A stretch of 55,227 bases of DNA from Rhodanobacteraceae bacterium (GTDB lineage: Bacteria > Acidobacteriota > Terriglobia > Terriglobales > Acidobacteriaceae): NCBI GenBank assembly GCA_903970285.1, contig CAJCHN010000108.1:1-55227 (forward strand). The letters are read 5' to 3'. Both the position numbers and the translations under genes were made by a program. The notes beneath the pieces were generated by a model. That model did no database searches, was not told the DNA's origin, and saw nothing but the letters and a program-made list of their open reading frames with translations. Of this stretch, positions 3,178 to 16,743 are shown piece after piece (the first letter of the stretch is position 1; the number at the start of each line of letters is the position of its first letter).

Positions 3178-3249
3178 CCACGAATCGGCCTCAGGCGTGG
3201 CGTGCGACATTCCGAACAGGCACGTCCGGCCTCCGTGTTAGATTTCCTC

Positions 3250-3759
3250 ATGGGTCCCCAGAAAACAGCCGACGAGCTGCTGATGGCGGACATCATCCGC
3301 TACACCGCTCGCACCCTCGACACCGCAACCCCGGTGCCGTTCGGCGCACTCATCGCCGAAACCGCCTCCGGCAAGCCATTTCTGCGCGCCATCAACGCCG
3401 TCCGCCAGGAGAACGACCCCAGCTCTCACGCCGAGCTGCGCGCCGTGCGCAAGGCCACCCGCAAGCTGCGGCGAACCAGCCTCAAGGGCTACACCCTCTA
3501 CACCACCTGCGAACCCTGTCCCATGTGCATGGCCAACGCGCTCTGGGCCGGGCTCGACCGTCTGGTCTTCGCCGCCACCATCGCCGACGCCACCCGCCAC
3601 TGCAGGCAGATCCACGTTCCCGCCGAAGAGATCAACCGCCGCAGCGACATGCCGCTCCAACTCGCGGGACCCATCCTGCGCGACCAGGCATACCAACTCT
3701 TTACCCATCCCAACATGCTCGCAGTCTTCGCCACCTGGAACCCCAAACCCCCGGGCTGA
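3250..3759 (+). CDS. Zinc-dependent nucleoside/guanine-type deaminase
   Basis: 169 residues from ATG 3250; an upstream in-frame start at 3202 has no supporting signal. The cytidine-deaminase fold is clear: SSHAELRA supplies the zinc His and proton-shuttling Glu, and TCEPCPMCMANALWAG supplies the PCxxC zinc cysteines. This subgroup includes guanine deaminases (GuaD type), tRNA adenosine deaminases and riboflavin-type deaminases. The length, about 10 residues longer than TadA, and the neighbouring amidohydrolases favour a catabolic base or nucleoside deaminase over tRNA editing, but that is inference. It is the first gene of the rightward catabolic run, 73 bp upstream of the FAD oxidoreductase gene. 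Confidence 0.82.
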   Translation: MGPQKTADELLMADIIRYTARTLDTATPVPFGALIAETASGKPFLRAINAVRQENDPSSHAELRAVRKATRKLRRTSLKGYTLYTTCEPCPMCMANALWAGLDRLVFAATIADATRHCRQIHVPAEEINRRSDMPLQLAGPILRDQAYQLFTHPNMLAVFATWNPKPPG

Positions 3760-3771
3760 TGCCTCAACTCG

Positions 3772-3815
3772 CGTCCCTTCGCGGCCGTTCCTTTGCGTCC
3801 TTAGCGTTCGTCTTG
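3772..3815. repeat. Degenerate GCGTCC-type interspersed repeat relic
   Basis: The short gap before the FAD oxidoreductase gene contains loosely repeated 6-12 bp words (GCGTCCCTTCGCGG, CCTTTGCGTCCTTAGCG). On the other strand they read as CGCAAAGG/CGCTAAGG words. Such low-copy word arrays occur between genes in many bacterial genomes. I see only about three imperfect copies here. Confidence 0.35.
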
Positions 3816-3832
3816 CCTTTGCTGGAGCCCCC

Positions 3833-5200
3833 ATGACCCCAGACGACCTCGAAGCCCTCACCCTCTGCATCGCCAGCCCCACTCGCCTCATCACCCAGCC
3901 GCAGACCGTTCAGCGCCTCTCGCGCGACTTCTATTGGTACTCCCCGGTCCTCAAGAAGCTGCTCGACGACAAGCTGGCCGAGGCCGTTGTTCAGCCCATC
4001 TCCACCGGCGAAGTTGTCGCGGTTCTGCGCACCTGCTACCGGCGCCGCATCCCGGTCACCGCACGCGGCGCCGGCACCGGCAACTACGGCCAGGCGATTC
4101 CGCTCGAAGGCGGCATCGTCCTCGATCTTGCCGCGATGGACACCATCCACGAGATCACCCCCGATGGCATTGCCATCGCAGGTCCCGGCGTCCGCCTCGG
4201 CGTGCTCGAAACCACTGCGCGCGAAGCAGGCTGGGAGCTCCGCTGCTATCCCAGCACCATCGCCAAGGCCAGTCTTGGCGGTTTCCTGGGTGGAGGCTCG
4301 GGTGGCATCGGCTCCGTCGCCCATGGCGGCCTGCGCGACTTCCAGACCGTTCGCGCGATTGAAGTCGTCACCATGGAGGCCGAGCCCCGCATCGTCCTGC
4401 ACGAAGGCGAAGCCGTCCACGACGTTCTTCACGCATGGGGAACCAACGGCATCATGACAAAAATCTGGCTCGCGCTCGTGCCCGCGGAGGCTTGGGCGCA
4501 GTGCGTCGTCGCCTTTGACACCTTCGACCAGGCTTTCCACTTCAGCGAGAAGATCGCCACCGGCGATGACTGGACCAAGCGCCTGGTCACCGCATTCGAG
4601 TGGCCCATCCCCGCCGCCTTCACGCCCATCGCTGCATGCATGCGCGAGGGCAAAGCCGTGGTCTTCTTCATGATCGCCTCGGCACAGCTCGACATCCTCA
4701 CCGCCGCGGCGCTCGACGCAGGAGGCGAGGTCACCCTGGCCGCCCCCTACACCGGCATCAGGACCCAGCCGCTGCTCTCCGATTACACCTGGAATCACAC
4801 CACCCTCTGGTTCATGAAGTACGATCCGGCCTTCACCTACCTCCAGTGCGGCTTCTCGCCCGGCGAAGCCCGCTCGCAGTTCGCCCGGTTGAAAGCCCGC
4901 TTCGCCGGCGACTTCCTGCTTCACCTCGAATTCATGAAGAACGGCGCGGGGATCGTCATCCCCGGCTCGATTCCGGTGGTGCGCTTCACCACCGAAGAAC
5001 GCCTGAACGAGATGATCGATTTCTGCCGCAGCATCGGCGTCTCCGTCGCCAACCCGCACTCCAACAACGTCGAAGGCGGAGGCCGCTACCGCGAGGACAA
5101 CGTACAGCTCCTGACCAAGTACAGGTACGACCCGCTCGGCCTGCTCAACCCCGGCAAAATGGCAACCTTCAACCCCGCCGAAGTCCCATCCTCTACCTGA
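3833..5200 (+). CDS. FAD-binding oxidoreductase (GlcD/PCMH type)
   Basis: 455 residues from ATG 3833. An FAD-binding PCMH domain covers about residues 40-230. It has the pyrophosphate-contacting stretch VTARGAGTGNYGQ, the G-rich loop GGFLGGGSGGIGS, and GLRDFQTVRAIEVVT. The C-terminal half resembles the cap domain of D-lactate/glycolate-type oxidases and ends in the typical LLNPGKM. The family oxidises hydroxy acids, alcohols or cyclic ureides with FAD. Electrons could go to oxygen, a quinone or a cytochrome. There is no signal peptide, so it is cytoplasmic. It lies between the deaminase and creatininase genes, with 71 bp to the next start. In this company it may oxidise a ring or hydroxy-acid intermediate; substrate unknown. 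Confidence 0.85.
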   Translation: MTPDDLEALTLCIASPTRLITQPQTVQRLSRDFYWYSPVLKKLLDDKLAEAVVQPISTGEVVAVLRTCYRRRIPVTARGAGTGNYGQAIPLEGGIVLDLAAMDTIHEITPDGIAIAGPGVRLGVLETTAREAGWELRCYPSTIAKASLGGFLGGGSGGIGSVAHGGLRDFQTVRAIEVVTMEAEPRIVLHEGEAVHDVLHAWGTNGIMTKIWLALVPAEAWAQCVVAFDTFDQAFHFSEKIATGDDWTKRLVTAFEWPIPAAFTPIAACMREGKAVVFFMIASAQLDILTAAALDAGGEVTLAAPYTGIRTQPLLSDYTWNHTTLWFMKYDPAFTYLQCGFSPGEARSQFARLKARFAGDFLLHLEFMKNGAGIVIPGSIPVVRFTTEERLNEMIDFCRSIGVSVANPHSNNVEGGGRYREDNVQLLTKYRYDPLGLLNPGKMATFNPAEVPSST

Positions 5201-5271
5201 ACCTCTTCTTCTCCATTCCGCAGCGGAGCGGAGGAGACTGACTGCTCTCGGCCCCAAGCTCAAGGAGCTCG

Positions 5272-6066
5272 ATGCAAACCTGGATCCCGCCCGAACGCCA
5301 GCTCGCCAACCTCACCTGGAAGCAGGTCGACGCGCTCGACAAGCAGAAGACGCTGCTCATCCTGCCGACCGCCGCCATCGAGCAGCATGGCCATCACCTG
5401 CCCATCGCCACCGACACCCTCATCAACAACCTGCTGCTCGGCCACGCCTTCCGGCATATCCCCGCCGCCGCGCCCATCTATGCGATGCCTGCGGTCTGCT
5501 ACGGTAAGTCCAACGAACACATCGGCTTCGCGGGCACGATGTCCGTCTCCGCCGCCACCTTCATGGCGGTCCTCCGCGATCTCGGCGCCAGCGTCCACGC
5601 CTCCGGCTTCCACAAGCTCGTGCTCTATAACACCCACGGCGGCAACACCGCGCTCGACGACGTCATGGCCCGCGACCTCCGCGCCGAGTTCGGCCTGCGC
5701 ACCTTCTATCTCTCGGGCGGCGCCGGGGCCGAGTACCCGGGGCTCTCCGCGCAGGAACGCGCCTTCGGCTTCCACGCCAACGAGTGGGAGACCGCCGTCC
5801 TGCTCGCCGCTACGCCTGAACTCGTCCACCCCGACGAGTACACCGTCAACTACATCGCAGACATCCGCCAGCCCAGCCTCCTCAAGCCAGAATTCGCTCC
5901 CGCCACCTTCGCCTGGCTTACCCGCGACATCGCACCTTCCGGCGTCATGGGCGACCCACGCCCGGCCACCGCCGAAAACGGCCGCCTGTGGATCCAGGCC
6001 GCCGCCCTCAAGGTCGCCGAAGCCCTGCTCGCCATGCTCGAATTCGAGGAGTTCGGAAAGCCTTGA
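5272..6066 (+). CDS. Creatininase-family metal-dependent amidohydrolase
   Basis: 264 residues, the usual family length. Signature residues are visible: PTAAIEQHGHHLPIATD carries metal-binding Glu, His and Asp; VLYNTHGGN carries a second His; and GFHANEWETA carries the last Glu. Members hydrolyse creatinine, cyclic amides or formamides (for example the FAPy deformylase ArfB and MftE-type peptidases) using two divalent metals. The stop codon overlaps the TTG start of the next gene (TTGA), indicating translational coupling. Its place beside a deaminase, amidase, formamidase and CocE-type hydrolase supports a ring-opening or deamidation step in a nitrogen-compound pathway. Confidence 0.88.
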   Translation: MQTWIPPERQLANLTWKQVDALDKQKTLLILPTAAIEQHGHHLPIATDTLINNLLLGHAFRHIPAAAPIYAMPAVCYGKSNEHIGFAGTMSVSAATFMAVLRDLGASVHASGFHKLVLYNTHGGNTALDDVMARDLRAEFGLRTFYLSGGAGAEYPGLSAQERAFGFHANEWETAVLLAATPELVHPDEYTVNYIADIRQPSLLKPEFAPATFAWLTRDIAPSGVMGDPRPATAENGRLWIQAAALKVAEALLAMLEFEEFGKP

Positions 6067-7814
6067 TCGACCCCGCTCTCGTCGACTGCGGCAACGGCGT
6101 CACCCTCGAGCGCGGCGTCCGCCTTCGCATGTCCGACGGCGTCACCCTCGTCTCGGACCACTACTACCCGCCCGGCGGCGGCCTCCAGCCCACCCTGCTG
6201 ATGCGCCAGCCCTACGGCCGCGACATCGCCTCCACCGTCGTCTACGCCCATCCCAGCTTCTTCGCCGCCCAGGGCTACAACGTCGTCATCCAGGATGTCC
6301 GCGGCCGCGGCGACTCCGAAGGCGAGTTCTACCCCTTCCGCCACGAAGCCCGCGACGGCTTCGAGACCATCCACCTGCTCCGCCAGCGGCCGGAGTGCAA
6401 CGGCAGACTCGGTATGTACGGCTTCTCCTACCAGGGCACCACCCAGTGGCTGGCCGCCGCCGAACAGCCTGAAGGCCTCCTGTGCATCGCCCCCGCTCAA
6501 ACCGCTCATGACCTGTATAACGGCTGGTTCTACTCCGGAGGCGCGTTGCGACTCGCCTCAACCCTCGGCTGGGGTCTGCAGATGCTCAAGGAAGACGCCC
6601 GCCGCCTGCAGCTCCACGAGGCCAGCGCCCGCCTCGAACGAGCCTGGCAGAACCTGCCTGCGCAATTCCTCGAAACTCCGTACGACCGGCACCCCGCCAT
6701 CCGCTGCGAAGGCCTCCCCACGTACGTCGCCGATTGGTTCGAGCACGACACCCAATCCAGCTACTGGTTCGACCTCGACATCAGCCGCAAGATGCCGCAG
6801 ATCAAGATTCCCGCGCTCCATCTCTCCGGCTGGTACGACACCTATCTCGCCGGCTCCATCGCTGGCTTCCTCGCCGCCTGCACCCACGCCCACCCCGACG
6901 CCCGCGCTCACCAGTATCTGGTAGCCGGCCCGTGGCAGCACATCCCCTGGGGTCAGCGCATCGGTGCCCACGACTTCGGTCCCGCCGTCCACCTCGACAC
7001 CGACGCCCTCCACGTCAGGTTCTTCAACCATTACCTGAAGGATTCCAGCGATTTTATTGACCAGCCCCGCATTCGGCACTTCGCCCTGAACGAAAATCAA
7101 TGGCACACAGCCATGCATTGGCCTCCGAACTCTGAACTTAAAAACTCTGAACTGCTCCCTCTTGAATCCAGCCGTCCGCCCGAACCCGCCCAAAGCCTCA
7201 CCCTCCACCTTCACTCCCGTCGCCGCGCCAACTCCAGCCGCGGCGACGGAACCCTGTCGCCCGAAGCCCCCACCGCCACAGAACCCTCCGACCTCTTCGT
7301 CTTCGATCCCGAAGTCCCGGTCCCCGCACCGGGCGGCCTCGCCAACACTCCCGGCCCCGTCAACCAGGCGCTGCTGGAGCAGGGCAACAACCTGCTCGTC
7401 TACACCTCCGCGCCGCTCGAAACCCGTCTGCACATCTTCGGCCATCCCATCCTCGAACTCCACGCCAGCACCTCCGCCGCACACGCCGACTTCATCGCCA
7501 AGCTCGTCCTCCTCAAGCCGGGCGGCGAAGCCCTCTTCCTCGTCCTCGGCGTCATCCGCAGCAGCCACCGCCCCGACGTTCCCACGCTCCACACCATCCA
7601 GCTCGACCCCACCTCCTGCGTCTTCTTTCCCGGCGACCGCATCCGCCTCGAAATCGCCAGTTCCGCCTATCCGCTCTTCGATCGCAACCCTTCCACCGCC
7701 GTCCCTCCACGGCTCGCATCCCCCTGGAACTGGCGCCGCAGCACCCAGTCCATCCATCACACCCACACCCACCCTTCCAGACTGCATCTTCCCCTCGCAC
7801 AGGAGGCACGATGA
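6063..7814 (+). CDS. CocE/NonD family hydrolase (S15-type alpha/beta hydrolase)
   Basis: 583 residues from TTG 6063. This start is chosen because GAGGAG lies just upstream (about 6048) and the codon overlaps the creatininase stop. The nucleophile motif GMYGFSYQG (Ser near residue 120), the acid region LSGWYDTYLAGS and the His motif VAGPWQH form the catalytic triad of the X-Pro dipeptidyl-peptidase/cocaine-esterase clan. A C-terminal jelly-roll domain (PEPX_C) follows. Family enzymes hydrolyse esters, amides or N-acyl bonds. Around residues 355-370 the product carries the odd stretch NSELKNSELLPLES, encoded by a repeat-like segment (7124-7163) and probably a surface insertion before the C-terminal domain. 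The stop overlaps the ABC ATPase start (ATGA). Confidence 0.88.
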   Translation: MIDPALVDCGNGVTLERGVRLRMSDGVTLVSDHYYPPGGGLQPTLLMRQPYGRDIASTVVYAHPSFFAAQGYNVVIQDVRGRGDSEGEFYPFRHEARDGFETIHLLRQRPECNGRLGMYGFSYQGTTQWLAAAEQPEGLLCIAPAQTAHDLYNGWFYSGGALRLASTLGWGLQMLKEDARRLQLHEASARLERAWQNLPAQFLETPYDRHPAIRCEGLPTYVADWFEHDTQSSYWFDLDISRKMPQIKIPALHLSGWYDTYLAGSIAGFLAACTHAHPDARAHQYLVAGPWQHIPWGQRIGAHDFGPAVHLDTDALHVRFFNHYLKDSSDFIDQPRIRHFALNENQWHTAMHWPPNSELKNSELLPLESSRPPEPAQSLTLHLHSRRRANSSRGDGTLSPEAPTATEPSDLFVFDPEVPVPAPGGLANTPGPVNQALLEQGNNLLVYTSAPLETRLHIFGHPILELHASTSAAHADFIAKLVLLKPGGEALFLVLGVIRSSHRPDVPTLHTIQLDPTSCVFFPGDRIRLEIASSAYPLFDRNPSTAVPPRLASPWNWRRSTQSIHHTHTHPSRLHLPLAQEAR

Positions 7815-8659
7815 GCGACCTGACCCAACCCCTCACCTGCGCTCCCCCCGCATCGCCGCAGACCACGTGCGCAGTCCGCTTCACCCACATCTCCAAACGC
7901 TTTGCCTCCGGTCCGCCCATCCTGCAGAGTCTCTCCGCTGACATTCCAGCCGGCCAGTTCGTCTCCATCATCGGACCGTCCGGCTGCGGCAAATCCACCC
8001 TGCTCAAGCTCGCCGCCGGCCTCACCGCTCCCACCGCCGGCACCGTCGAGATCGACGGCCAGTCCCCCGCCGCCGCCCGCAAATCCATCTCCTTCATCTT
8101 TCAGGATCCCACCCTGCTTCCCTGGCGCACGGTCCGCGAAAACATCGCCCTCGGCCTGGAACTCGCTCATGTCCCCCGCTCCGAGCGCACCCAGATCGCC
8201 AACCAGCAGATCAACCTCGTCAATCTGCAGCACGTCGCCAATCACTACCCGCGTCAGCTCTCCGGCGGCATGAAAATGCGCGTCTCCATCGCCCGCGCGC
8301 TCGCTTCCAGCCCGCGCCTCCTGCTGCTCGACGAGCCCTTCGCCGCACTCGACGAGATCTCCCGCGACCGCCTCAACGAAGAACTCCTTCGCCTGCGCCA
8401 GCAGCAGAGCTGGACTGTCCTCTTCGTCACCCACTCCATCGCCGAAGCCGTCTTTCTCTCCGACCGCATCCTCGTCCTCGCCGCTCATCCCGGACGCCTG
8501 GTGCACGACGTCCCCATCACCCTCCCGCAGCCCCGCACCACCGCGACCCGCGCCTCCGCCGCGTTCGACCGGACCATCGCCGAAGTCTCCCGCACCCTGC
8601 GCCACGTCGAAACCGGCCAGCACGACGCACCCGGCTTACCCCGCGAGGTTCCCCAATGA
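7811..8659 (+). CDS. ABC transporter ATP-binding protein, nitrate/sulfonate/NMT1 class
   Basis: 282 residues with Walker A GPSGCGKSTLL, Q-loop FQDPTLLPWR, signature LSGGMKMRVSIARA and Walker B LLLLDEPFAALDE followed by the switch His (VTHS). The TLLPWRTVREN context is typical of TauB/SsuB/ThiZ-like ATPases that energise import of small nitrogen or sulfur compounds. The gene overlaps both the upstream hydrolase gene and the downstream permease gene by ATGA junctions. The matching binding protein is not next to it but about 6.7 kb downstream at 15311. Confidence 0.93.
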   Translation: MSDLTQPLTCAPPASPQTTCAVRFTHISKRFASGPPILQSLSADIPAGQFVSIIGPSGCGKSTLLKLAAGLTAPTAGTVEIDGQSPAAARKSISFIFQDPTLLPWRTVRENIALGLELAHVPRSERTQIANQQINLVNLQHVANHYPRQLSGGMKMRVSIARALASSPRLLLLDEPFAALDEISRDRLNEELLRLRQQQSWTVLFVTHSIAEAVFLSDRILVLAAHPGRLVHDVPITLPQPRTTATRASAAFDRTIAEVSRTLRHVETGQHDAPGLPREVPQ

Positions 8660-9447
8660 AGAAGCACGTCGCCACCTTCTTCTCCGCCGCGGCCATCTTC
8701 GCCACGCTCCTGCTGGTCTGGGTCGCCGTCATCAATACGCTCAAGCTGCAGCCCTTCATGCTGCCGACCCCGCTGGCCGTCTACCAGGCGGCCATCAGCC
8801 GCTTCCCCAGCCTGCTCACCTCGCTCGCCATCACCGCCGCCGCGGCCGCCGGCGGGCTGATCGCCGCCATCACCATCGGCGTGCTCGCCGCCATCCTCTT
8901 CGCGCAATCCCGCTGGCTGCGCCGCATGTTCTACCCCTACACCATCCTGCTTCAGACCGTTCCCATCGTCGCCGTCGCACCGCTCATCCTCATGTGGATC
9001 GGCCCCGGCATCTTCTCGGTCGCGCTCATCGCCTTCATCATCTGCCTCTCGCCCATCATCGCCAACACCACCCAGGGATTGATCTCCGTCGAACGCAACC
9101 TGATCGACCTCTTCGTCATGAACGGCGCCTCCCGCGCCCAGGTCATGTTGCACCTGCGCCTGCCCCACGCGCTGCCGTCGCTCTTCACCGGCATCCGCAT
9201 CTCCTCCGGCATCGCCGTCATCGGAGCCATCACCGGCGAACTCTTCGCCGGCTCCGCCCGGGTCGGCGTCGGCGGCATCGGCTACGCCATCCAGTACGCC
9301 AGCTCGCAGCTCGAAACCGACTACCTCTTCGCCCTGGTCGCCGCCGCCACCGTCCTCGGCTTCACTTTCTTCTTCTCCGTCACTTTCGTCGAATGGCTCT
9401 TCCTGCACACCTGGCACGAGTCGGCCCGCACCCCCGACGAGGACTGA
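8656..9447 (+). CDS. ABC transporter permease, TauC/SsuC/ThiX-like
   Basis: 263 residues with about six membrane helices. The EAA-type loop is visible (MNGASRAQVMLHLRLPHALPSLFTG), and this is where the ATPase docks. It belongs to the binding-protein-dependent inner-membrane permease family used for taurine, nitrate, pyrimidine and thiamine-precursor import. The start overlaps the ATPase stop by 4 nt. With the ATPase (7811) and the lipoprotein receptor (15311) it completes one importer. Confidence 0.93.
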   Translation: MKKHVATFFSAAAIFATLLLVWVAVINTLKLQPFMLPTPLAVYQAAISRFPSLLTSLAITAAAAAGGLIAAITIGVLAAILFAQSRWLRRMFYPYTILLQTVPIVAVAPLILMWIGPGIFSVALIAFIICLSPIIANTTQGLISVERNLIDLFVMNGASRAQVMLHLRLPHALPSLFTGIRISSGIAVIGAITGELFAGSARVGVGGIGYAIQYASSQLETDYLFALVAAATVLGFTFFFSVTFVEWLFLHTWHESARTPDED

Positions 9448-9497
9448 CTTCCGCCGCATCCCACTCGCCCGGCCTTTGCTCTATAAATGGAGGGGAC

Positions 9498-10316
9498 ATG
9501 CTCCGCCTCCAGACCCCCACCGGCTACTTCCTCATCACCCATCCCGATCACGCACATCTCGCCGGCCGCTTCGCCGAGCACTGGGGCAACGATCTCTTTC
9601 TTCCCCCCACCCCCCGAGAAAACGTCCTCCACGGCATCCACGTGCACGACGACGGCTGGCTCGCCCGCGACGCGGAGCCCGCCGTCACCCGCGCCGGCCG
9701 GCCCTCCGCCTTCTCCTCCGAACTCGTCGGCCGCTACTCCGCCTTCGAGGAAATCGTCTTGGCCGACTACCTTGCCGTCCGCGAGTCCGCCGTCCAGCAG
9801 GTCGAGCAGACCGACGCCTACGCCGCCTTGCTCGTCTCCATGCACACCTACAACCTGCTCACCGAGCACGCCGACCGCACCTCCATCCAGCCGGCCGATC
9901 TGCCCCTGCTCGATGCCTTCCTCGACCGTCAGCGTCAGCGCCAGCTCGCCCTGCACAAGGCCATCCGCAACGATCTAGGCTTCCGCCCCGAACAGGTCAC
10001 CACCGAAGCCGTCTTCAACAACTTCCGCCTGCTGCAGGCCTGCGACAACCTTTCGCTGCTCAGCTGTGTCGCCTATGCCCAGCCCGCCACCCTGCTGCAC
10101 CCGCTGCCCACAGTCCACGGCCCGGTGCCCGTCGCCGTCGAACCGAAGGCGGCCCGCCACTTTCGACTCACGCCATACCCCTTCAACCAGCCGGTCCTGC
10201 ACTTCGAAATTCCCGCCCGTCACGTCGTAGGCCACACCTTCGCATCCAGCGCGGATCTCGCCCACAGATACCACGCCGCATCTCCCGAATCCCTGGCCGT
10301 TACCGTCACCGCCTGA
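9498..10316 (+). CDS. DUF3891 family protein, function unknown
   Basis: 272 residues from ATG 9498, preceded by GGAGGGG with good spacing. Conserved-looking parts: an N-terminal LITHPDHAHLAGRFAEHWG, then HVHDDGW, and later HTYNLLTEH and NNFRLLQACDNLSLL. The clustered His/Asp pairs suggest a metal-binding all-helical fold reminiscent of HD-type hydrolases, but that is only an impression. It has no signal peptide or membrane segment. It follows the ABC permease gene by 50 bp and is probably cotranscribed with it, so it may process the imported compound. I recognise the family as DUF3891; no activity is known to me. Confidence 0.75.
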   Translation: MLRLQTPTGYFLITHPDHAHLAGRFAEHWGNDLFLPPTPRENVLHGIHVHDDGWLARDAEPAVTRAGRPSAFSSELVGRYSAFEEIVLADYLAVRESAVQQVEQTDAYAALLVSMHTYNLLTEHADRTSIQPADLPLLDAFLDRQRQRQLALHKAIRNDLGFRPEQVTTEAVFNNFRLLQACDNLSLLSCVAYAQPATLLHPLPTVHGPVPVAVEPKAARHFRLTPYPFNQPVLHFEIPARHVVGHTFASSADLAHRYHAASPESLAVTVTA

Positions 10317-10391
10317 ACCCTCGTCCCGCTCGACCCGCCGGGCGCGCCGGGTACCCCATCTCTCGGCTCTGACGTCCGATCCCGCAAATGA

Positions 10392-10772
10392 TCACCCCAG
10401 CAGCGAAACATGCGCCGCCACAATCCTCCAACCGTCTTCGAACCGCACCCATACCTGGCTCTGCCGTCCCCTTACCCTGGCGCCGCCGGTCTCCCGCTCA
10501 AACTCCAGCGTCACGCTTCCGTGATCCTTGCCGAACGTGACCACGTCCAGCCGCGTCACCTTCCGCTCCAGCCCCGCACTCGGCCGCGCCAGCCGGAACG
10601 CCTCAATCTCTTCCATGCCGTAGAGGTTTTCCCCCACGCCAAACCGCATCGCATGCGCGGACGACCAGAACAAGCGCGTCAGGGTAGCGACGTCGTTCTC
10701 CATCAGCGCACGCTCGTAAGCCGGATAAAGCTCCTGCAACTCCCGCACCGTCGCCGGATCGTTCACCACCAA
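10392..10772 (-). CDS. DUF3225 / AtzH-like (HpxZ-like) small NTF2-fold protein
   Basis: 126 residues. TTG 10772 or GTG 10769 is the likely start, because GGAGGTGA lies 6-9 nt upstream. The sequence (YPAYERALMENDVATLTRLFW, GVGENLYGMEEIEAFR, DGWRIVAAHVS) has the SnoaL/NTF2-like helix-sheet pattern. It matches the family that includes AtzH, known as a 1-carboxybiuret decarboxylase, and HpxZ of purine/oxalurate catabolism gene sets. Those relatives are usually encoded with an AtzE-like amidase. Here the amidase (13971) sits in a separate operon 3.2 kb away. It is last in the leftward RidA-formamidase-DUF3225 operon. The role as a decarboxylase or amidase partner is inference. Confidence 0.75.
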   Translation of the reverse strand: MVVNDPATVRELQELYPAYERALMENDVATLTRLFWSSAHAMRFGVGENLYGMEEIEAFRLARPSAGLERKVTRLDVVTFGKDHGSVTLEFERETGGARVRGRQSQVWVRFEDGWRIVAAHVSLLG

Positions 10773-10849
10773 ACCGTCACCTCCACCAAGCTCTCAATGT
10801 TCAACTCTGAGTTCTGAAGCTCCTATGCTGAACTTCCAGTTCATCACCT

Positions 10850-11782
10850 CTAGAACAATCGCCTCGCCGGCAGAATCTTCTTCAGAATAGCTGCGCTGAC
10901 CGTCGTCATCGGACGATTCACCACCTGGCTGAACCGCAGCTTCATCGCCACGCTGCACAGCACGTACGCCTCGATGGCCGTGAATCCCCACCGCGACACC
11001 AGCAGATCGATCATTCGCGAGGTCGCCGCCTGCGCCGTCCGGATTGCATCCTCGCCGGATTCCACCACAATCCACTCCGGCCCGCCCTCATCCGGATATC
11101 CGGCCGATTCCAGCATCGGCCCGGCGAGCGTCTGCCCCTTGTGAAGCTGGAACTGCAGCGTCACCTCGGCCGGCATCTCCATCCCGTTCACGCAGACCTC
11201 GCCATCTCCCTGCGCGGCATGGGCGTCGCCCGCGGAGAACAGCGCACCCGCATGCAGCACCGGCAGATACAACGTCGCCCCCGCGCTCAGTTCGCGAACG
11301 TCCAGGTTGCCGCCGAACACCCCCGGCGGGCGCGTGCGAAACTCTCCTGCTACCCCCGGCGCAACCCCCATCACGCCGCAGAACGGACGCAGCGGCACCA
11401 CCGCCGGCGCCAGCGAACGGCTTTGATACCCCTCCAGCTTCCATTGGAACAGGTACGCCCCGGAGAATCGTTCTTCCAGAAAACCCAATCCGGGAATCAC
11501 ACTCGTCCACGCCCAGCCGCGGTGCGCCACCTCCAGCACCTTCACCGCCAGCACGTCTCCCACCTCGGCGCCTGCCACCTCGATCGGCCCGGTCAGCGCA
11601 TGAATCCGCGCGCGATCGATCGCGAGAAAATCCTCTACCGTCGAATCCGGCCGCACCTGCCCGCCGCTCGCGTCCAGACACTCCAGAGTGACGATCGCGC
11701 CCGGCGCGATGGTCAGCCGCGGCGCCAGCTCCCGGTTCCAGACTGAATGCGTCGGCTCGGCACTGAGCGAATGCTCCTTCAT
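10850..11782 (-). CDS. Acetamidase/formamidase family protein
   Basis: 310 residues from ATG 11782; upstream in-frame codons lack family sequence. Family motifs are clear: the N-terminal THSVWNRELAP, PIEVAGAEVGDVLAVKVLEV, GVMGVAP, GGNLDVRELSAGATLYLPV, the metal/substrate loop AGALFSAGDAHAAQGDGEVC, and the C-terminal AYVLCSVAMKLRFSQVV. Such enzymes release ammonia and an acid from short amides and depend on a divalent metal. No signal peptide is evident. It is the middle gene of a leftward operon, 61 bp from RidA and 77 bp from DUF3225. It fits a late step in which formamide or a related small amide is cleaved. Confidence 0.9.
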   Translation of the reverse strand: MKEHSLSAEPTHSVWNRELAPRLTIAPGAIVTLECLDASGGQVRPDSTVEDFLAIDRARIHALTGPIEVAGAEVGDVLAVKVLEVAHRGWAWTSVIPGLGFLEERFSGAYLFQWKLEGYQSRSLAPAVVPLRPFCGVMGVAPGVAGEFRTRPPGVFGGNLDVRELSAGATLYLPVLHAGALFSAGDAHAAQGDGEVCVNGMEMPAEVTLQFQLHKGQTLAGPMLESAGYPDEGGPEWIVVESGEDAIRTAQAATSRMIDLLVSRWGFTAIEAYVLCSVAMKLRFSQVVNRPMTTVSAAILKKILPARRLF

Positions 11783-11843
11783 CGTCCCCCGTCGCCGCTC
11801 GTCCTGCCGGAAAGCCTCGTCATGAGGAAGTTCTACTCCTTCT

Positions 11844-12305
11844 TCACCCGATCCGCACCACCATCTGCACCTCCACCAGCGCATTCCGCGGCAAAGCACT
11901 CACCCCCACCGCCGCCCGTACATGCCGTCCCGTCTCGCCAAATACCTCGATCAGCAAATCCGAAGCCCCGTTGATCACCTTCGGCGAATCCCCAAACCCG
12001 GCCACGGCATTCACATACCCGTTCAGGCTCACCACCTCGGCAATCTCATCCAGACCCGCCGCTCCCACGTGACGCCGGATCGCCGCCAGCTGTGCCAGCC
12101 CGCACAGCCGCGCCGCGGCATACCCTTCCTCGAGCGTCCGATCCAACCCTACGGTCCCGGTCACTACCCCCAACGGACCGATCGAGATCACCCCGGACAG
12201 ATACACCAGCTCCCCCACAGTCTTCGCCGGAACATAGTTTCCGCCCGCCGCCGGACCCTCCGGCAGGACAATCCCCAGCTCCCGCAACCGCGTCTCCGCT
12301 CCCAT
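11844..12305 (-). CDS. RidA/YjgF/UK114 family protein
   Basis: 153 residues from ATG 12305. The long-form RidA pattern is seen: RLRELGIVLPEGPAAGGNYVP, VYLSGVISI, GLDRTLEEGYAAARLCGLAQLAAI, FGDSPKVINGASDLLIEVFGE and RAAVGVSALPRNALVEVQMV (contains the conserved Arg). Canonical RidA hydrolyses reactive enamine/imine intermediates. Relatives within pyrimidine and ureide pathways (RutC/RutD-like) hydrolyse aminoacrylate-type products. First gene of the leftward operon, divergent from the cytochrome-fusion gene across 211 bp that includes a GTGCATGCAC palindrome (12378-12387). Confidence 0.9.
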   Translation of the reverse strand: MGAETRLRELGIVLPEGPAAGGNYVPAKTVGELVYLSGVISIGPLGVVTGTVGLDRTLEEGYAAARLCGLAQLAAIRRHVGAAGLDEIAEVVSLNGYVNAVAGFGDSPKVINGASDLLIEVFGETGRHVRAAVGVSALPRNALVEVQMVVRIG

Positions 12306-12516
12306 AGCCCCACACTCTACCATGCCGGGCCACACCTCGACCGCATCCGGTCCTCCTTCACCTTTGCACCACTCTCGGTGCATGCACGTAGTCTGTACCA
12401 CCCTTAAGCCGATTGGTTTGAAGAATATAAGCAACAATGAGGGGGGCTGGTGGTCGAGCCTCGTCTGCCGGTCAGATTTCACTAGGCGAAGCCCACGTTT
12501 CCGCTCACAATAGCTC

Positions 12517-13479
12517 ATGCCTCGACCTCCGGCCAGGAAGCTCCCGCTCCTGAGACCCGCCTCGCTCCGGAACCTGCTCGTCTCCCTGCTCGCAATCGCG
12601 TTCCCAGGCATGCTGGCCGGCACATCCGCCTTCGCCCTGCCTCCCGCCGCGAAACACCTCCTCCATCTGCGCCGCCAATCCGATTCCGACCTCGAGATCA
12701 CCGGCCTCATCCGGAACCTGCAGCCCGGCGAATCCAGCTTCGTCCGCTACGCCGATCTCCTCGCCCTGCCCCAGACCCGCGCCCTCGTCACCGACCATCC
12801 CGGCTACCCCGGACCGCCGCTGCACATCTCCGGCATCTCCTTCGAAACGCTCTCCGCCGCGCTTGGCGCGCTCCCGCAATCCGACCTGATCGACGCCCTC
12901 TGCACCGACCGCTACCGGGCCCACTTCCCCGCCCCCTATATCGCCCAGCACCACCCCATCCTGGTGCTCACCGTCGACGGCCAAACCCTGGCCGCCTGGG
13001 CACGCCAGGCGCACCAGCTCGACCCCGGCCCCTACGTCGTCATGTACGCCCGCTTCGTTCCCAGTTTCAAGCTGCTCGCGCACGTCGATCGGCCCCAGCT
13101 TCCGGACAATGTTGTGCGCCTCAACTTCTCCACTCAGGCAGCGACCTTCGGCGCGATCGCCCCGCGCGGCAGCTTTCCGCCCGGGTCGCCCGAGCAGATC
13201 GGCTTCGCCATCGCGAAGCAGAACTGCCTCCGCTGCCACTTCCAGGGTCCGTTCGGCGGCACCAAGTCGGGCCAAAGCTGGCAATCGCTCAGCCTCTGGG
13301 CACGCGAGCAGCCGGCATACTTCCAGGCCTACGTCAGCAATCCGCAAAAGATCGATCCCCATGCGCACATGGAGCCAAATCCGGAATACGATAACGCCAC
13401 CCTCCGTGCGTTGACCGCCTACTTCCGCACCTTCACGCCGTCTGTCACGCCACCTGCCCGCGAGGCCCACTCCCGATGA
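12517..13479 (+). CDS. Exported cytochrome c fused to a molybdopterin-oxidoreductase-like domain
   Basis: 320 residues. Signal/anchor segment at about 18-42, ending near SAFA. Residues 55-215 resemble the sulfite-oxidase-type molybdopterin-binding fold (DLEITGLIRNL, SFVRYADLLALP, CTDRYRAHFP, YVVMYARF). The single Cys in CTDRYR could match the molybdenum-ligand position, but the rest is too divergent to claim a bound cofactor. A C-terminal c-type domain carries one haem site (CLRCH, about residue 239) and a later Met (HMEP). The stop overlaps the DUF2165 start. It is placed ahead of an amidase gene and a binding-protein gene, so it may be a periplasmic redox step of the same pathway. Confidence 0.72.
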   Translation: MPRPPARKLPLLRPASLRNLLVSLLAIAFPGMLAGTSAFALPPAAKHLLHLRRQSDSDLEITGLIRNLQPGESSFVRYADLLALPQTRALVTDHPGYPGPPLHISGISFETLSAALGALPQSDLIDALCTDRYRAHFPAPYIAQHHPILVLTVDGQTLAAWARQAHQLDPGPYVVMYARFVPSFKLLAHVDRPQLPDNVVRLNFSTQAATFGAIAPRGSFPPGSPEQIGFAIAKQNCLRCHFQGPFGGTKSGQSWQSLSLWAREQPAYFQAYVSNPQKIDPHAHMEPNPEYDNATLRALTAYFRTFTPSVTPPAREAHSR

Positions 13480-13967
13480 TCCTGCGCACTTCCAAGATCG
13501 CATTGCTGGCAGCCGTGGCATTGTTCTTCACCCTCGTCGTCTTCAATAACACGACGGACTACAACTCCAACTACCAGTTTGTCCGGCACGTGCTGATGAT
13601 GGATTCGACGTTTCCCGGCAATCGCGGCATGTGGCGGGCGCTGAATCCAGCCTGGATCCACACCGTCTTCTACTGGTCCATCATCGCCACCGAGGCCGCG
13701 ATCACGATCCTGAGCTGGTGGGGTGTGCTGACGCTCGTGCGGGCTCTCCGCGCGCCGCAACCGGAATTCCAGCACGCGAAGATCACCGGGATTGCCGCCC
13801 TGACGCTTGGCTGCCTCTTGTGGTCTGTCGCCTTCCTCTCCATCGGCGGCGAGTGGTTCCTGATGTGGCAGTCAAAGACCTGGAACGGGCAGGATGCCGC
13901 GTTTCGCATGTTCACCGTCCTGGGCATCACGCTGATCTACCTCGCAGCCGCGGAGCCGGAGGTTTAG
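13476..13967 (+). CDS. DUF2165 family integral membrane protein
   Basis: 163 residues with four hydrophobic segments (about 8-24, 62-84, 100-120, 140-158). The loop between the first two carries NNTTDYNSNYQFVRHVL and the following part NPAWIHTVFYWSIIATEA, which I associate with DUF2165. Family members lie in the inner membrane and have no established function. ATGA overlap with the cytochrome gene and 3 bp to the amidase gene put it firmly in the operon. It may anchor the cytochrome or act as a small membrane subunit of a dehydrogenase. Confidence 0.8.
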   Translation: MILRTSKIALLAAVALFFTLVVFNNTTDYNSNYQFVRHVLMMDSTFPGNRGMWRALNPAWIHTVFYWSIIATEAAITILSWWGVLTLVRALRAPQPEFQHAKITGIAALTLGCLLWSVAFLSIGGEWFLMWQSKTWNGQDAAFRMFTVLGITLIYLAAAEPEV

Positions 13968-13970
13968 CAC

Positions 13971-15314
13971 GTGCTGGAGCGCATTTCACCCTTGACCGCG
14001 CTGCGCCGCGCCCTGGCGGAGGGCACCACCTCGCCGCGCACCATCGCCTCAGCCTGCGCGGCCCGCGCCAACTCGAGCGCCTCGCACAATACATACCTGC
14101 ACTTCGGCCGCGAGCGTCTGCTGCAGGACGCCGCGATGCTCGAGAACGCCGGATCGCCGTCTGCTCCGCTCTTCGGAGTACCTGTCTCGCTGAAGGACAG
14201 CTTCGACCTCGCCGGAACCGTCACCACCTGCGGCTCGCGCTTCTACGCCGAACACAATCAGCCTGCGGCCAGCGACTCCGCCATGGTCCAGGTGCTGCGG
14301 GCCAGCGGCGCGCTCATCACAGGCAAGACCCATCTGCAGCAGCTCGCCTACGGCATCACCGGCCAGAATCCGGACTTTGGCGACTGCCTCCAGCCCCGCG
14401 ACGCCATGCTGCTTACCGGAGGATCGTCCGCCGGCGCAGCCGCCAGTGTGCAGGAGGGCTCCGCGCTGGTGGCCATCGGCACCGATACAGGTGGCTCCAT
14501 CCGGGTGCCGGCCGCCCTTTGCGGCTTGACCGGCTACCGCGCGTCGCACGGGCTTGCGTACGGAGACGGCCCCTGGCCTGCAGCCCCGGAAGGTCTCTGG
14601 CAGGGGAGCGTGCATCTGGCGGAAACGTTCGATACCCCGGGTTTTCTCCTGCGGGATCCCCGCGATGCCGCTCCGGTCGCCGGCGCGCTCTTCGGTGTGG
14701 CGCCGCCTGGATTCAGCCGCCAGCTTCGCATCGGCTTCGTCGAGGAGAGCTGGCTCCCGGACGCACGCCCCGAGGTCATTGACGCGTATCGAAGCTGGCG
14801 GCGGCAGTTGACTTCGTTCCACGGAGCACCAGGAGCCTTCGACCCGGACTTCTGGTCCGATGCGCGCGAGATCTTTGCCGCTATCCAGGCTGCTGAGGCG
14901 TTTCGCATTCATGGCGCGCACCTCGACCAGTTTGAGCCGGCGATCGCGCAGCGGCTTCACGCCGGTTCTGCGTTGTCCGCCGCATCTGTGGCCGAATTCC
15001 GCGCCAGACTCACGGTCTTTCGCTCCGGCATGCAGGAGCTTTTCGCCCGGTTCGACATCCTCATGCTGCCCTGCGCGCCGGCCAGCCGGCTGGAGGCGGC
15101 GGCTGATCAGAGTCATACCCGCGCCGCCATCCTGCGCTACACCACGCCGTTCTCGCTGGCCGGCTGCCCGGTCGTCTCGCTGCCCGGCGAGATCATCGGC
15201 GCGCCGTTCGGCACCGGCGTGCAGCTGGCAGCAGCACCCGGCGAGGACGCCTTGCTGCTCGCCTTCGCGGGAGATCTTGCCCAATGGTTGATCGATCAGG
15301 AAGGATTGCGATGA
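13971..15314 (+). CDS. Amidase-signature family hydrolase (AtzE/AtzF/GatA-like)
   Basis: 447 residues from GTG 13971, with GGAGG 8 nt upstream. The Ser-cisSer-Lys machinery is visible: VSLKDSFDLAG (Lys), GGSSAGAAASV (cis-Ser) and GTDTGGSIRVPAALCGL (nucleophile Ser). Amidase-signature enzymes hydrolyse C-N bonds of amides, ureas and carboxylated biurets. The size and absence of a GatB partner argue against tRNA amidotransferase. The presence of a DUF3225 gene nearby favours an AtzE/HpxY-like ureide amidohydrolase. The small AtzG-type subunit that usually accompanies AtzE is not seen. The stop overlaps the start of the binding-protein gene (ATGA). Confidence 0.88.
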   Translation: MLERISPLTALRRALAEGTTSPRTIASACAARANSSASHNTYLHFGRERLLQDAAMLENAGSPSAPLFGVPVSLKDSFDLAGTVTTCGSRFYAEHNQPAASDSAMVQVLRASGALITGKTHLQQLAYGITGQNPDFGDCLQPRDAMLLTGGSSAGAAASVQEGSALVAIGTDTGGSIRVPAALCGLTGYRASHGLAYGDGPWPAAPEGLWQGSVHLAETFDTPGFLLRDPRDAAPVAGALFGVAPPGFSRQLRIGFVEESWLPDARPEVIDAYRSWRRQLTSFHGAPGAFDPDFWSDAREIFAAIQAAEAFRIHGAHLDQFEPAIAQRLHAGSALSAASVAEFRARLTVFRSGMQELFARFDILMLPCAPASRLEAAADQSHTRAAILRYTTPFSLAGCPVVSLPGEIIGAPFGTGVQLAAAPGEDALLLAFAGDLAQWLIDQEGLR

Positions 15315-16273
15315 AGCTACGCCGATGGACCGCTTTGTCTATGCTGATGCTTGCCGGTTGTCATTCGTCGCCGAAGCGTGATGACGGCCTCTTCCACATC
15401 GTCTTTCAGGCCGACTGGTATCCGCAGCCGGAGATCGGCGGCTTCTACCAGGCGCAGCTCCAGGGGCTCTACAAGGCCCAGGGACTCGACGTGGAAATCG
15501 TTCCCGGCGGCCCCAACGTGATCGGCGGTCAGCAGGTGGCCACGGGCGCGGCACAGTTCGCCATGAGCAGTTCAGACGCGGTACTGGTCGACAACGCGCG
15601 CGGAGTACCGGAGGTGGCGGTGGCCGCGACCATGCAGCAGGACCCTCAGGCCATCATGGTGCACGAGAACTCGCCGGTGCACAGCTTCGCCGACCTGGAT
15701 GGACATTCCGTTGCGGTCAAACCTGGCGCCATCTACTTCCAGTATCTCGTCAAGCGGTTCAATCTGAGGAATGTTCGTGAGACGCCTGCGACCTACAGCG
15801 TGGCCAACTTCGTGCGCGATCCGGACTACATTCAGCAGGCCTTCGTAACCTCCGAGCCATACTTTGCGCGGCGGGCCGGCTCGCCCGTACGCACCCTGCT
15901 GATCAGTTCAACGGAGTTTCAGCCGTATCGCGTTTTCTTTACCTCGCGTCAGTTCCTGAGCGCACATCCCGACATCGTGCAGAAGTTCGTGACTGCTTCC
16001 ATCCAGGGCTGGAAGAACTATCTGGCTGATCCCACGATGGTCGACGCGGAGATTGCCAAGCTGAATCCGGCCATGAGTCCGGAGCAGATGAAGTTCTCGA
16101 TCGAGACATTGAAGTCGGGACACTTCATCGAGGGCGATGGCACACCCGACTCGCACCTGGGGCACTTTTTGGTAGACCGCTGGAACCGGACCTACCAGCA
16201 ATTGCTCGATCTGGGCGTCATTCCACACCCGCTGGATCCGTCGTCGGCCTACACCACGCGCTTTGCTCCTTAG
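15311..16273 (+). CDS. ABC substrate-binding lipoprotein, NMT1/THI5-like
   Basis: 320 residues from ATG 15311, overlapping the amidase stop. It has a lipoprotein signal with lipobox LAGC near residues 14-17. The mature part follows the NMT1/THI5/SsuA pattern: FQADWYPQPEIGGFYQAQLQ, YKAQGLDVEIVPGG, GAAQFAMSSSDAVL, FADLDGHSVAVKPG, FVTSEPYFARR and FVTASIQGWKNYL. Relatives bind thiamine-precursor pyrimidines, riboflavin, pyrimidines, nitrate or sulfonates. It should deliver its ligand to the permease/ATPase at 7811-9447. The N-terminal FQADWYPQPE resembles the pyrimidine-precursor branch more than taurine receptors, but ligand identity stays open. Confidence 0.9.
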   Translation: MKLRRWTALSMLMLAGCHSSPKRDDGLFHIVFQADWYPQPEIGGFYQAQLQGLYKAQGLDVEIVPGGPNVIGGQQVATGAAQFAMSSSDAVLVDNARGVPEVAVAATMQQDPQAIMVHENSPVHSFADLDGHSVAVKPGAIYFQYLVKRFNLRNVRETPATYSVANFVRDPDYIQQAFVTSEPYFARRAGSPVRTLLISSTEFQPYRVFFTSRQFLSAHPDIVQKFVTASIQGWKNYLADPTMVDAEIAKLNPAMSPEQMKFSIETLKSGHFIEGDGTPDSHLGHFLVDRWNRTYQQLLDLGVIPHPLDPSSAYTTRFAP

Positions 16274-16279
16274 TCAGCT

Positions 16280-16663
16280 TCAGACCCAGTACGAGATGGT
16301 TCGCCCGGAAGTCGCAGAGCTGGCGGCGCTCAGTCCATCCGCCACCCACGTTCTCTTGCCACTGTATGCGGTGGGCTGCTCGCCCTGCGGGGTCGCTTGC
16401 TGTTGCGGCAATGGTGGTTCCGCACCAGCCGCAGCCGCTTGCTGCTGCGGCAACTGCGGCTCCGCGCCAGCTGTCGCATCACCTTTCCATTGGCCCACCA
16501 TCTCCTGCGTCTCAGGATCGGCTTTGGCGGACATCTCCTGCGCGGCCTGCAGAAGGCTCCGCCGGGCTGCCGCCGCACGCTGCAGAGTCGCAGCTTTCTC
16601 GAGCGCCACCTGCGAATACGGGTTAAAGGGCTGCGACGCAACACCCTGGATGTGTCCGTGCAT
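16280..16663 (-). CDS. Small Ala/Gln-rich hypothetical protein
   Basis: 127 residues from ATG 16663, with GAGAGG about 5 nt upstream. No family recognised. Residues 1-60 look helical and charged (NPYSQVALEKAATLQRAAAARRSLLQAAQEM). Residues 70-95 contain two near-identical copies of AGAEPxLPQQQA. There is no signal peptide or membrane helix. It is convergent with the binding-lipoprotein gene (6 bp between stops) and follows the FHA-phosphatase gene on the same strand, 80 bp downstream of it, so it could be cotranscribed with that gene. Confidence 0.6.
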   Translation of the reverse strand: MHGHIQGVASQPFNPYSQVALEKAATLQRAAAARRSLLQAAQEMSAKADPETQEMVGQWKGDATAGAEPQLPQQQAAAAGAEPPLPQQQATPQGEQPTAYSGKRTWVADGLSAASSATSGRTISYWV

Positions 16664-16743
16664 ACGCACCTCTCACCCTGCCTGAAGCAATCGGCGCACC
16701 ATTCCAGTCAGAGCATGCATTGGCGAACACTCAGAAAAGGTGA

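Follow-up and report, generated by a model that had tools for sequence, protein, structure and literature searches.

Synthesis of pterins and folates is nearly universal among cells, yet we found little on bacterial genes for breaking the pterin ring, and no paper on a cluster that opens the pterin, pteridine or folate ring among the titles listed in our searches. The folic acid degradation described for Variovorax sp. F1 employs carboxypeptidase G and a pterin deaminase; in that report, pterin deaminase genes predicted in V. paradoxus were used to clone the enzyme active in strain F1, a conserved 'endoribonuclease' gene lies downstream of the predicted genes, and the work ends at deaminated pteroate (PMC9513972). 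Another point of reference is the flavoenzyme of PDB entries 6V42/6V43, with 6V42 entitled 'Crystal structure of the flavin oxygenase with cofactor bound involved in folate catabolism'; a full-text literature search with both codes returned no paper, none of the titles listed by further searches concerned that structure, and the function of 6V42 is taken from this title. A logic like that proposed below is found in the Rut pathway (RutA-G), where flavin-dependent oxygenation of a heterocycle is followed by an amidohydrolase, an alpha/beta hydrolase and a Rid-family protein, with a dedicated importer (PMC7662398).

Here we describe an island of 14 genes at 3283-16273 of the window (the whole stretch of 55,227 nucleotides that was analyzed), through which pteridines (pterins), compounds with the ring found in folate and biopterin, are probably taken up and degraded. 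Gene families were assigned from Pfam and NCBIfam profile matches (Table 1), confirming that the gene island is real: all families named in a first-pass annotation were recovered, roughly where they had been placed, including its DUF3225 gene, which is the AtzH/HpxZ one. DUF3891, the c-type cytochrome and DUF2165 had however been overlooked. The proposed three-operon layout is borne out by the gene spacing, with seven genes on the plus strand, three on the minus strand and four on the plus strand, and 193 bp between the divergent second and third units. Likewise congruent with that annotation, no regulator-type family was detected among the island genes using Pfam and NCBIfam.

Table 1. Genes of the island, with positions in the window and the basis of each assignment.
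Gene	Family	Position	Strand	Basis
DEAM	cytidine-deaminase (CDA)-fold deaminase	3283..3759	+	PF00383, 66 bits
FADox	FAD-dependent oxygenase of 6V42 type, FAD_binding_4	3833..5200	+	profile vs 6v42, Foldseek
CREAT	creatininase-family amidohydrolase	5272..6066	+	PF02633, 221 bits
COCE	CocE/NonD alpha/beta hydrolase (S15)	6063..7814 (start uncertain between 5988 and 6063)	+	TIGR00976, 370 bits
ATPase	ABC importer ATPase, nitrate/taurine/sulfonate type	7811..8659	+	PF00005; ntrCD 213 bits, below cut-off 292
Permease	ABC importer permease	8656..9447	+	PF00528; SaoP/TauC/SsuC-like, below cut-offs
DUF3891	DUF3891 protein	9498..10316	+	PF13030, 148 bits
HPXZ	AtzH/HpxZ-type NTF2-fold protein	10392..10772	-	HpxZ NF033625, 152.5 bits, above cut-off 135
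FMDA	acetamidase/formamidase family amidase	10850..11782	-	PF03069, 189 bits; below FmdA equivalog cut-off
RIDA	Rid-family protein, PF14588 type	11844..12323	-	PF14588, 78 bits
CYTC	single-haem c-type cytochrome	12517..13479	+	CxRCH motif; no Pfam match at E<=0.001
DUF2165	small membrane protein	13476..13967	+	PF09933, 202 bits
AMID	amidase-signature enzyme, AtzE/biuret-hydrolase-like	13971..15314	+	PF01425, 199 bits
SBP	NMT1/ThiY-like importer receptor	15284..16273	+	PF09084, 111 bits

The flavoenzyme provides the clue to the substrate. A FADox profile matched 6v42/6v43 at E 1.1e-133 across profile positions 15-447 of 454, with the next family at 7.6e-23, and Foldseek placed 6V42 at rank 1 (TM 0.87, 43% identity), followed by a structure of 19% identity. 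FADox is full-length homologous to 6V42 and nearer to it than to other FAD_binding_4 enzymes of known structure, which, with moderate confidence, narrows the 'unidentified compound' of the first-pass annotation to a pteridine. DEAM, with HAE and PCxxC motifs that are invariant in a 20-row alignment, is proposed as a candidate pterin (2-amino) deaminase. Its best PDB profile matches, at E ~1e-23, are 5jfy (deoxycytidine deaminase), 7dqn/7dbf (guanosine deaminase) and 1tiy/1wkq (guanine deaminase), and since guanine and guanosine deaminases are its nearest relatives, equally close to it, a purine substrate is also possible. In the main rival to the pterin reading, guanine or 8-oxoguanine would be imported, deaminated by DEAM and broken down by an unusual flavin oxygenase rather than via the urate/allantoin route.

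Related clusters in Verrucomicrobiota bear on both the pterin reading and this purine route. In a set of the best 80 of 222 relatives, verrucomicrobial clusters contain an added amidohydrolase in 11 loci and a reductase-type gene in eight, while an XDH-type Fe-S subunit, of which one member was checked, is present in seven. A separate gene tally over these loci took hits with E<=1e-8 at any position in the locus and is affected by contig ends and the 10-kb flanks. For the one amidohydrolase member examined, the nearest PDB entries are 3hpa, 7ww2, which is named 8-oxoguanine deaminase, and 2paj, an isoxanthopterin deaminase. XDH subunits also adjoin one of seven proteobacterial clusters, and a standalone FMDA-AMID locus (L130) includes a DEAM homologue (36%) as well as ORFs that, by ORF reading alone, resemble XDH subunits and XdhC. 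On the other hand, the FADox homologue is titled folate-catabolic, no urate-oxidizing enzyme is named among the 54 PDB matches of FADox, and the uricase, HIU hydrolase and allantoinase families were not found among the island genes. Weighing both, we regard the purine route as unlikely.

A shorter related core is found on proteobacterial plasmid records, with related sets in Rhizobium. All seven rhizobial/roseobacter neighborhoods of the 6V42/6V43 type have the homologous flavoenzyme, the creatininase and the ATPase, permease and receptor of the NMT1-type ABC importer, and as CREAT and SBP are 28-39% identical to those of the island, the exact substrate may differ in Proteobacteria. In contrast, the acidobacterial island possesses a CDA-fold deaminase, what is probably another Rid subgroup and no adjacent flavin reductase (FMN_red was not detected among its genes by Pfam, while a flavin-reductase-type gene is annotated in 6/7 proteobacterial loci), and it adds CocE, DUF3891, FmdA, the AtzH-type protein, the amidase, cytochrome c and DUF2165. 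Congruently, DEAM, COCE, DUF3891, FMDA, HPXZ, AMID, CYTC and DUF2165 lack matches in the seven loci at E<=1e-3. So does RIDA, despite an annotated Rid protein in each of them, and the proteobacterial Rid protein thus probably represents another subgroup, leaving just the core in common. Immediately upstream of FADox, six of the seven loci instead encode an amidohydrolase ('cytosine deaminase'), as would be expected if the deaminase step is required and the enzyme type exchangeable. The one examined (L123) showed no link to a demonstrated pterin deaminase, its best PDB match being cytosine deaminase 1r9z (E 1e-33).

The Variovorax F1 system shares pterin-ring deamination with the proposed route, and the 'endoribonuclease' gene beside the predicted V. 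paradoxus deaminase genes may encode a Rid protein. The F1 deaminase, however, is of a different type: it has 399 residues and is placed with the hydrolases that act on cyclic amidines (PMC9513972), whereas DEAM has 158 residues and the CDA fold. No folate-cleaving peptidase family was found among the island genes with Pfam and NCBIfam. The first-pass annotation had also called for comparison with rut, hpx, atz and creatinine clusters, none of which proved a full match, given cut-offs and missing partners. The Rut reading was set aside: RutA belongs to a different, luciferase-type family of FMN enzymes, RutG is a permease as opposed to the ABC importer of the island, and RutA-, RutB- or RutF-type families are missing among the island genes in Pfam. 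The AtzE-AtzG-AtzH/Hpx module is similar in that HPXZ exceeds the HpxZ cut-off with an AtzH pocket and that AMID is AtzE-like; the AtzG/HpxX family was however not found among the island genes. The Atz cyanuric acid operon was rejected, with no AtzD/cyanuric acid hydrolase family in the island and AMID at 186 against the AtzE cut-off of 426. Creatinine utilization shares the creatininase family and motifs, but was also discarded: CREAT falls below the creatininase and MftE cut-offs (TIGR04448, 83.8 vs 235), and no creatinase family is present in the island.

We then turn to conservation across the order. The 22 of 150 genomes that carry CREAT are also the ones with FADox and SBP; as these three genes are co-present and co-absent without exception, the importer belongs with the enzymes, in agreement with the earlier notion of a split importer as part of the same system. 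From the 21 relatives with CREAT, 20 loci of 20 kb each were taken, some of which are cut at the ends. FADox, CREAT, DEAM, SBP and DUF3891 were recovered in all 20, COCE and both ABC parts in 19, FMDA and RIDA in 17, AMID in 16 (being absent near the core in four), HPXZ in 15, and CYTC and DUF2165 in 12. The order of the gene blocks is shuffled and some are inverted, yet they mostly stay together, while the flanking genes of the window (GH95, a 129-aa ORF, SpoIIE/FHA, kinase/TPR) appear in none of the 20 loci, which extend a few kb past the islands. Thus, the island behaves as one evolutionary unit. Judging by their identical lengths, several contigs are common to the 80-locus and 150-genome sets, which are therefore not independent.

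The claim of a single import-and-breakdown system consequently holds for the core, which is neither scattered nor independently lost among the 150 genomes, with the qualification that the RIDA-FMDA-HPXZ/CYTC-DUF2165 block is separable. FMDA is present in 27 genomes, the 22 with the core and five others; at the core-less loci RIDA adjoins FMDA in three, among them L131 and L132, while FMDA is accompanied by AMID in L130 and L134, and by most of the block in L133, where the HPXZ match consists of two short pieces. Furthermore, FMDA is located on another contig or more than 100 kb from the core in G031, G034, G115 and G131, and the genome of the window has the entire block once more at a separate place (G000:C113, L135), where a permease-like ORF and one for a TonB receptor accompany it (mechanical ORFs, without annotation). 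These data would suit two neighboring systems, a pterin core (the first and third blocks) and an independent ureide/amide block, brought together by chance. However, FMDA is found in 22/22 core genomes, and in half of 20 verrucomicrobial genomes (10) less than 50 bp separates it from DUF3891. FMDA, RIDA, CYTC and DUF2165 are tied to core-type genes also in Verrucomicrobia, in other combinations than in the island, and the strings SBP-DUF2165-RIDA-FMDA-CYTC and FMDA-DUF3891-AMID (mechanical ORFs) link all three blocks, making chance proximity improbable in our view. With HPXZ in 1/20 verrucomicrobial genomes, AMID absent from 4/20 loci and FMDA core-less in 5/27 genomes, the tail may be optional or serve other ureides. 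A second FADox copy in the genome of L081 (L073) has no cluster within the stretch examined.

The receptor raises a further alternative. SBP, with an N-terminal LAGC indicative of a lipoprotein, matches PDB 4nmy, ThiY 3ix1 and THI5 in profile searches. ThiY, its look-alike, is a receptor for an aminopyrimidine, a resemblance that speaks for the pterin reading as well. Were SBP a ThiY, the island could salvage or degrade a thiamin-type aminopyrimidine, with the amidases stripping formyl or aminomethyl groups. Yet TenA, ThiD and ThiE families were not found among the island genes, and an Rfam scan of window positions 1-20000, up to E 1, gave no match, and hence no TPP riboswitch there; to our knowledge, moreover, a flavin oxygenase of this kind has no part in thiamin-pyrimidine salvage. 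ThiXYZ-type salvage was accordingly rejected despite the receptor, and the thiamin alternative as a whole appears very unlikely. Rfam applied to six related loci returned six tRNA matches and nothing else.

Returning to the pterin ring, the analysis establishes the gene content, its conservation and joint inheritance, the catalytic residues and the FADox homology, and from these we infer a substrate, an order of steps with a Rut-like logic, and products as follows. A free or side-chain-bearing pterin would be taken up by the NMT1-type ABC importer, in relatives together with a TonB receptor. DEAM would take off the 2-amino group to yield a lumazine, the 6V42-type flavin oxygenase would oxygenate the ring, and the opening of cyclic amide or acyl bonds would fall to the creatininase- and CocE-type hydrolases. 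Imine or enamine intermediates would be cleared by the Rid protein, and the amide and ureide pieces that result would be taken down to ammonia, CO2 and small acids by FmdA together with the amidase and the AtzH-type protein. TonB receptors are encoded in many relatives' clusters, not in the island of the window. More tentatively, and with somewhat more doubt than belief on our side, the island may represent an entire pathway, not described before, by which soil Acidobacteriota and Verrucomicrobiota open and mineralize the pteridine ring. In it, a CDA-fold pterin deaminase would stand in for the known amidohydrolase type, the ring oxygenase would be the 6V42-type enzyme, and DUF3891, whose fold is unmatched in the PDB and whose invariant His/Asp residues form an HD-like set, would be a new enzyme family. 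If the pterin reading is right, the island would offer a testable gene set for ring breakdown in these two soil phyla. It would also suggest a candidate role for DUF3891 and possible ones for DUF2165 and the AtzH-type protein, and give a case of one pathway step being served by unrelated deaminases in different phyla.

Conserved residues and nearest structures were also compared for the individual proteins. In CREAT, E37-Q-H-G, H42, P44, T47-D48, H122-G-G-N125, E171 and E173 are invariant in 21 rows, and we propose it as a ring-opening enzyme, while S127/D264/H298 of COCE (numbering of window:6048-7811) are invariant in 19 rows. DUF3891 maintains H15, H18, H50-D51, H116 and D183-N184 throughout a 24-row alignment; its AF2 model (pLDDT 93.5) found no match at E<=0.001 in a fold search against the PDB, and it may be either an enzyme or an accessory protein. 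HPXZ matches AtzH 6bjt at E 1.2e-30, and all nine AtzH pocket residues, including Tyr22 and Arg46, are invariant in 16 rows, assuming a constant 22-residue PDB-chain offset; we propose it as a decarboxylating ureide hydrolase. The best PDB match of FMDA is 2ii1, and that of RIDA, a putative imine/enamine hydrolase, is the uncharacterized 3d01, with the Rid proteins PA0814 and ACIAD3089 among the next matches. The CxRCH motif of CYTC, which is probably exported and possibly acts as electron acceptor, is invariant in 11 rows. Finally, K75, S152 and S176 of AMID are invariant in 17 rows, and its PDB matches include 2dc0 and biuret hydrolase 6c62.

The island recognized in the first-pass annotation was confirmed as fourteen genes in three transcription units, and the gene families named there are all present, although DUF3891, a c-type cytochrome and DUF2165 had been overlooked. 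The window is one entire contig (G000:C108, 55,227 bp) of a 4.13 Mb genome in 151 contigs, with Granulicella and other Acidobacteriaceae as named close relatives. Overlaps of 4 bases link COCE to the ATPase, the ATPase to the permease, CYTC to DUF2165 and, if COCE starts at 6063, CREAT to COCE; AMID and SBP overlap by 31 bases, and 193 bp separates the divergent units two and three. A sigma-54 response regulator (322-1788 in L102, 857-2290 in L109) accompanies two verrucomicrobial clusters, while no regulator is present in the window island.

Layout of the island and its borders (DEAM, CDA-fold deaminase; FADox, flavoenzyme; CREAT, creatininase family; COCE, CocE/NonD hydrolase; HPXZ, AtzH/HpxZ-type; FMDA, formamidase family; RIDA, Rid family; CYTC, c-type cytochrome; AMID, amidase-signature; SBP, NMT1-type receptor)
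Feature	Position	Strand	Content or role
GH95 glycosidase	667-3177		borders island on one side
Unit one		+	DEAM-FADox-CREAT-COCE-ATPase-permease-DUF3891
Unit two		-	HPXZ-FMDA-RIDA
Unit three		+	CYTC-DUF2165-AMID-SBP
129-aa ORF and SpoIIE/FHA gene	from 16744		border island on other side

Among 150 genomes of the order, CREAT (E<=1e-30) was found in 22, the window genome included, all of one family and five genera. FADox (E<=1e-60) and SBP (E<=1e-40) occupy exactly the same 22 genomes, supporting the earlier proposal of one import-and-breakdown system. In the 20 kb around the creatininase, fetched for 20 of the 21 relatives, DEAM, FADox, CREAT, SBP and DUF3891 were present in 20/20 loci and COCE and both ABC parts in 19, followed by FMDA and RIDA (17), AMID (16), HPXZ (15) and CYTC and DUF2165 (12 each), with some loci cut by their ends. 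Four window genes from outside the island, used as queries in the same run, matched in 0/20 loci. Block order and orientation are shuffled and inverted between genomes, and locus L042 is devoid of COCE, the ABC parts and unit two, the latter residing elsewhere in that genome (L136). In L032 and L037 a 160-aa gene is inserted between HPXZ and FMDA, DUF1348/SnoaL-like in the former and matched by length only in the latter.

Several observations count against reading the island as one pteridine-degrading system. FMDA (E<=1e-40) occurs in 27 genomes, the 22 with CREAT and five more without the core of CREAT-, FADox- and SBP-type genes. The surroundings of the core in L025, L033, L035 and L041 yielded no AMID match, and the window genome holds a second RIDA-FMDA-HPXZ / CYTC-DUF2165 block (L135, G000:C113:1-18000). 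Next to this block stands a permease-like ORF, together with an Oar-like TonB receptor that shares 43% identity over 836 residues with that of cluster L028.

When named species genomes were scanned with the flavoenzyme alignment, 222 relatives emerged; the analysis used the best 80, several of whose genomes also belong to the first set. Cultured carriers in that scan include Granulicella aggregans M8UP14, Terracidiphilus gabretensis S55 and Silvibacterium bohemicum S15. Counted at E<=1e-8, as lower bounds owing to contig ends and flank length, at least 79 of these best 80 of 222 loci hold CREAT, 78 DEAM, 76 COCE, 72 SBP, 71 ATPase, 70 permease, 54 DUF3891, 48 AMID, 33 HPXZ, 33 FMDA, 23 DUF2165, 21 RIDA and 9 CYTC. 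Verrucomicrobial records make up 21 of the 80 (L100-L117, L120-L122). Among 20 genomes out of these 21, FMDA was detected in 18 and DUF3891 in the identical 18; in ten the two lie less than 50 bp apart, with DUF3891 away from the core locus. HPXZ is nearly absent (1/20), which again counts against the reading. Further strings are SBP-deaminase-SBP-DUF2165-RIDA-FMDA-CYTC in L151 and L152, FMDA-DUF3891 with AMID about 1 kb further on in L142 and L148, and SBP-RIDA-FMDA with a TonB-receptor-like ORF in L153. On the basis of such verrucomicrobial cross-links, we argue that units one, two and three serve one process. Verrucomicrobial clusters also add an amidohydrolase (11 loci), the tested member of which matches 3hpa, the 8-oxoguanine deaminase 7ww2 and 2paj, and a reductase-type gene (8 loci), one member of which is barely above the FMN_red cut-off. 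Two TonB-dependent receptor kinds recur in the best 80 of 222 loci, Oar-like (about 1300 aa, 19/80) and Plug-type (about 810 aa, 13/80), with one of each Pfam-checked and both absent from the window island; their recurrence suggests that the outer-membrane substrate of these clusters is scarce or large.

Regarding the substrate, the FADox profile matches 6v42 across positions 15-447 of 454 (E 1.1e-133; next family 7.6e-23), and the AlphaFold model (pLDDT 80.6) recovers 6v42 at Foldseek rank 1 (E 1.8e-40, TM 0.87, 43% identity). This entry is titled 'Crystal structure of the flavin oxygenase with cofactor bound involved in folate catabolism'. No paper turned up when full texts were searched for the entry code, and its function thus rests on the title. 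The structures nearest to DEAM are guanine, guanosine and one deoxycytidine deaminase, and pterin has the same 2-amino-4-oxo edge as guanine, while SBP is closest to 4nmy, then ThiY and THI5. In V. paradoxus, a passage of PMC9513972 describes a conserved 'endoribonuclease' gene following predicted pterin deaminase genes, the enzyme later being shown active in strain F1; we read this 'endoribonuclease' as a Rid protein. Jointly with the added verrucomicrobial amidohydrolase and reductase-type genes, these affinities favor, with moderate confidence, a pteridine as the substrate. The main rival is a purine instead, and two xanthine-dehydrogenase-family loci elsewhere in the window genome are listed against the pteridine.

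For a pteridine, the route would start with import and deamination to a lumazine, followed by flavin-dependent oxygenation; the creatininase-type enzyme would then open a cyclic amide, and the ureide and amide fragments would be broken down. The proposal is modeled on the Rut pathway, where, as a passage of PMC7662398 has it, a flavin oxygenase cleaves uracil and further operon enzymes then act. Catalytic residues are intact wherever checked, with the creatininase motif residues kept in 21 CREAT rows, HAE and PCxxC in 20 DEAM rows, K75/S152/S176 in 17 AMID rows and S127/D264/H298 in 19 COCE rows. HPXZ retains the AtzH pocket Tyr and Arg plus seven more residues in 16/16 rows, according to a residue list in PMC6219798, where AtzH is proposed as a decarboxylating 1,3-dicarboxyurea amidohydrolase; late in the route, a ureide carboxylate could thus plausibly arise as an intermediate.

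DUF3891, conserved at 54-69% identity to the window protein across 23 rows, has a confident predicted structure (pLDDT 93.5) that matched no solved structure at E<=0.001. Its invariant residues, H15, H18, H50-D51, H116 and D183-N184, suggest a candidate metal site.

The flavoenzyme is encoded at below 60% identity by 141 of 72,556 plasmid-collection records, 109 of them from Rhizobium. Across seven proteobacterial neighborhoods (tblastn with the island proteins, E<=1e-3), CREAT (32-39% identity), SBP (28-33%), ATPase (41-50%), permease (31-38%) and FADox (37-44%) were each found in 7/7, and the other nine proteins, RIDA and DEAM included, in 0/7. Thus, these 6V42-type clusters have the core alone in common with the island, which counts against the reading. 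An annotated Rid protein is present in 7/7, and therefore probably belongs to another subgroup. An amidohydrolase lies immediately upstream of the flavoenzyme in 6/7, where DEAM is lacking, so a deaminase step seems to be kept with the enzyme type exchanged. An NAD(P)H oxidoreductase is nearby in 6/7 and xanthine dehydrogenase subunits in 1/7. The 6V42-type cluster has a reductase, whereas the island has none, and we regard the island as a variant of that cluster without it. Assignments to the Rut, Atz, creatinine and thiamin systems were rejected, as the island failed a tested feature of each. Locus L126, a Klebsiella pneumoniae record (CP125156.1) with the creatininase match split in two pieces, is labeled a plasmid and, at 5.37 Mb, is probably a mislabeled chromosome.

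A strand-fixed GC-skew patch covers window positions 1-13500, fading out at 13476-14000, in which the + strand is C-rich irrespective of the coding strand. Third-position skew is -0.39 to -0.58 for the + genes from GH95 through CYTC, +0.41 to +0.62 for the three - genes, and -0.06, -0.18 and +0.01 for DUF2165, AMID and SBP, respectively. Islands of many relatives sit in similar patches of either sign, and in L033 (genome G071, about 6100-19900) the strand-fixed skew flips sign within the island, with third-position values moving from -0.30 in DEAM to +0.67 in DUF3891, both on the + strand.
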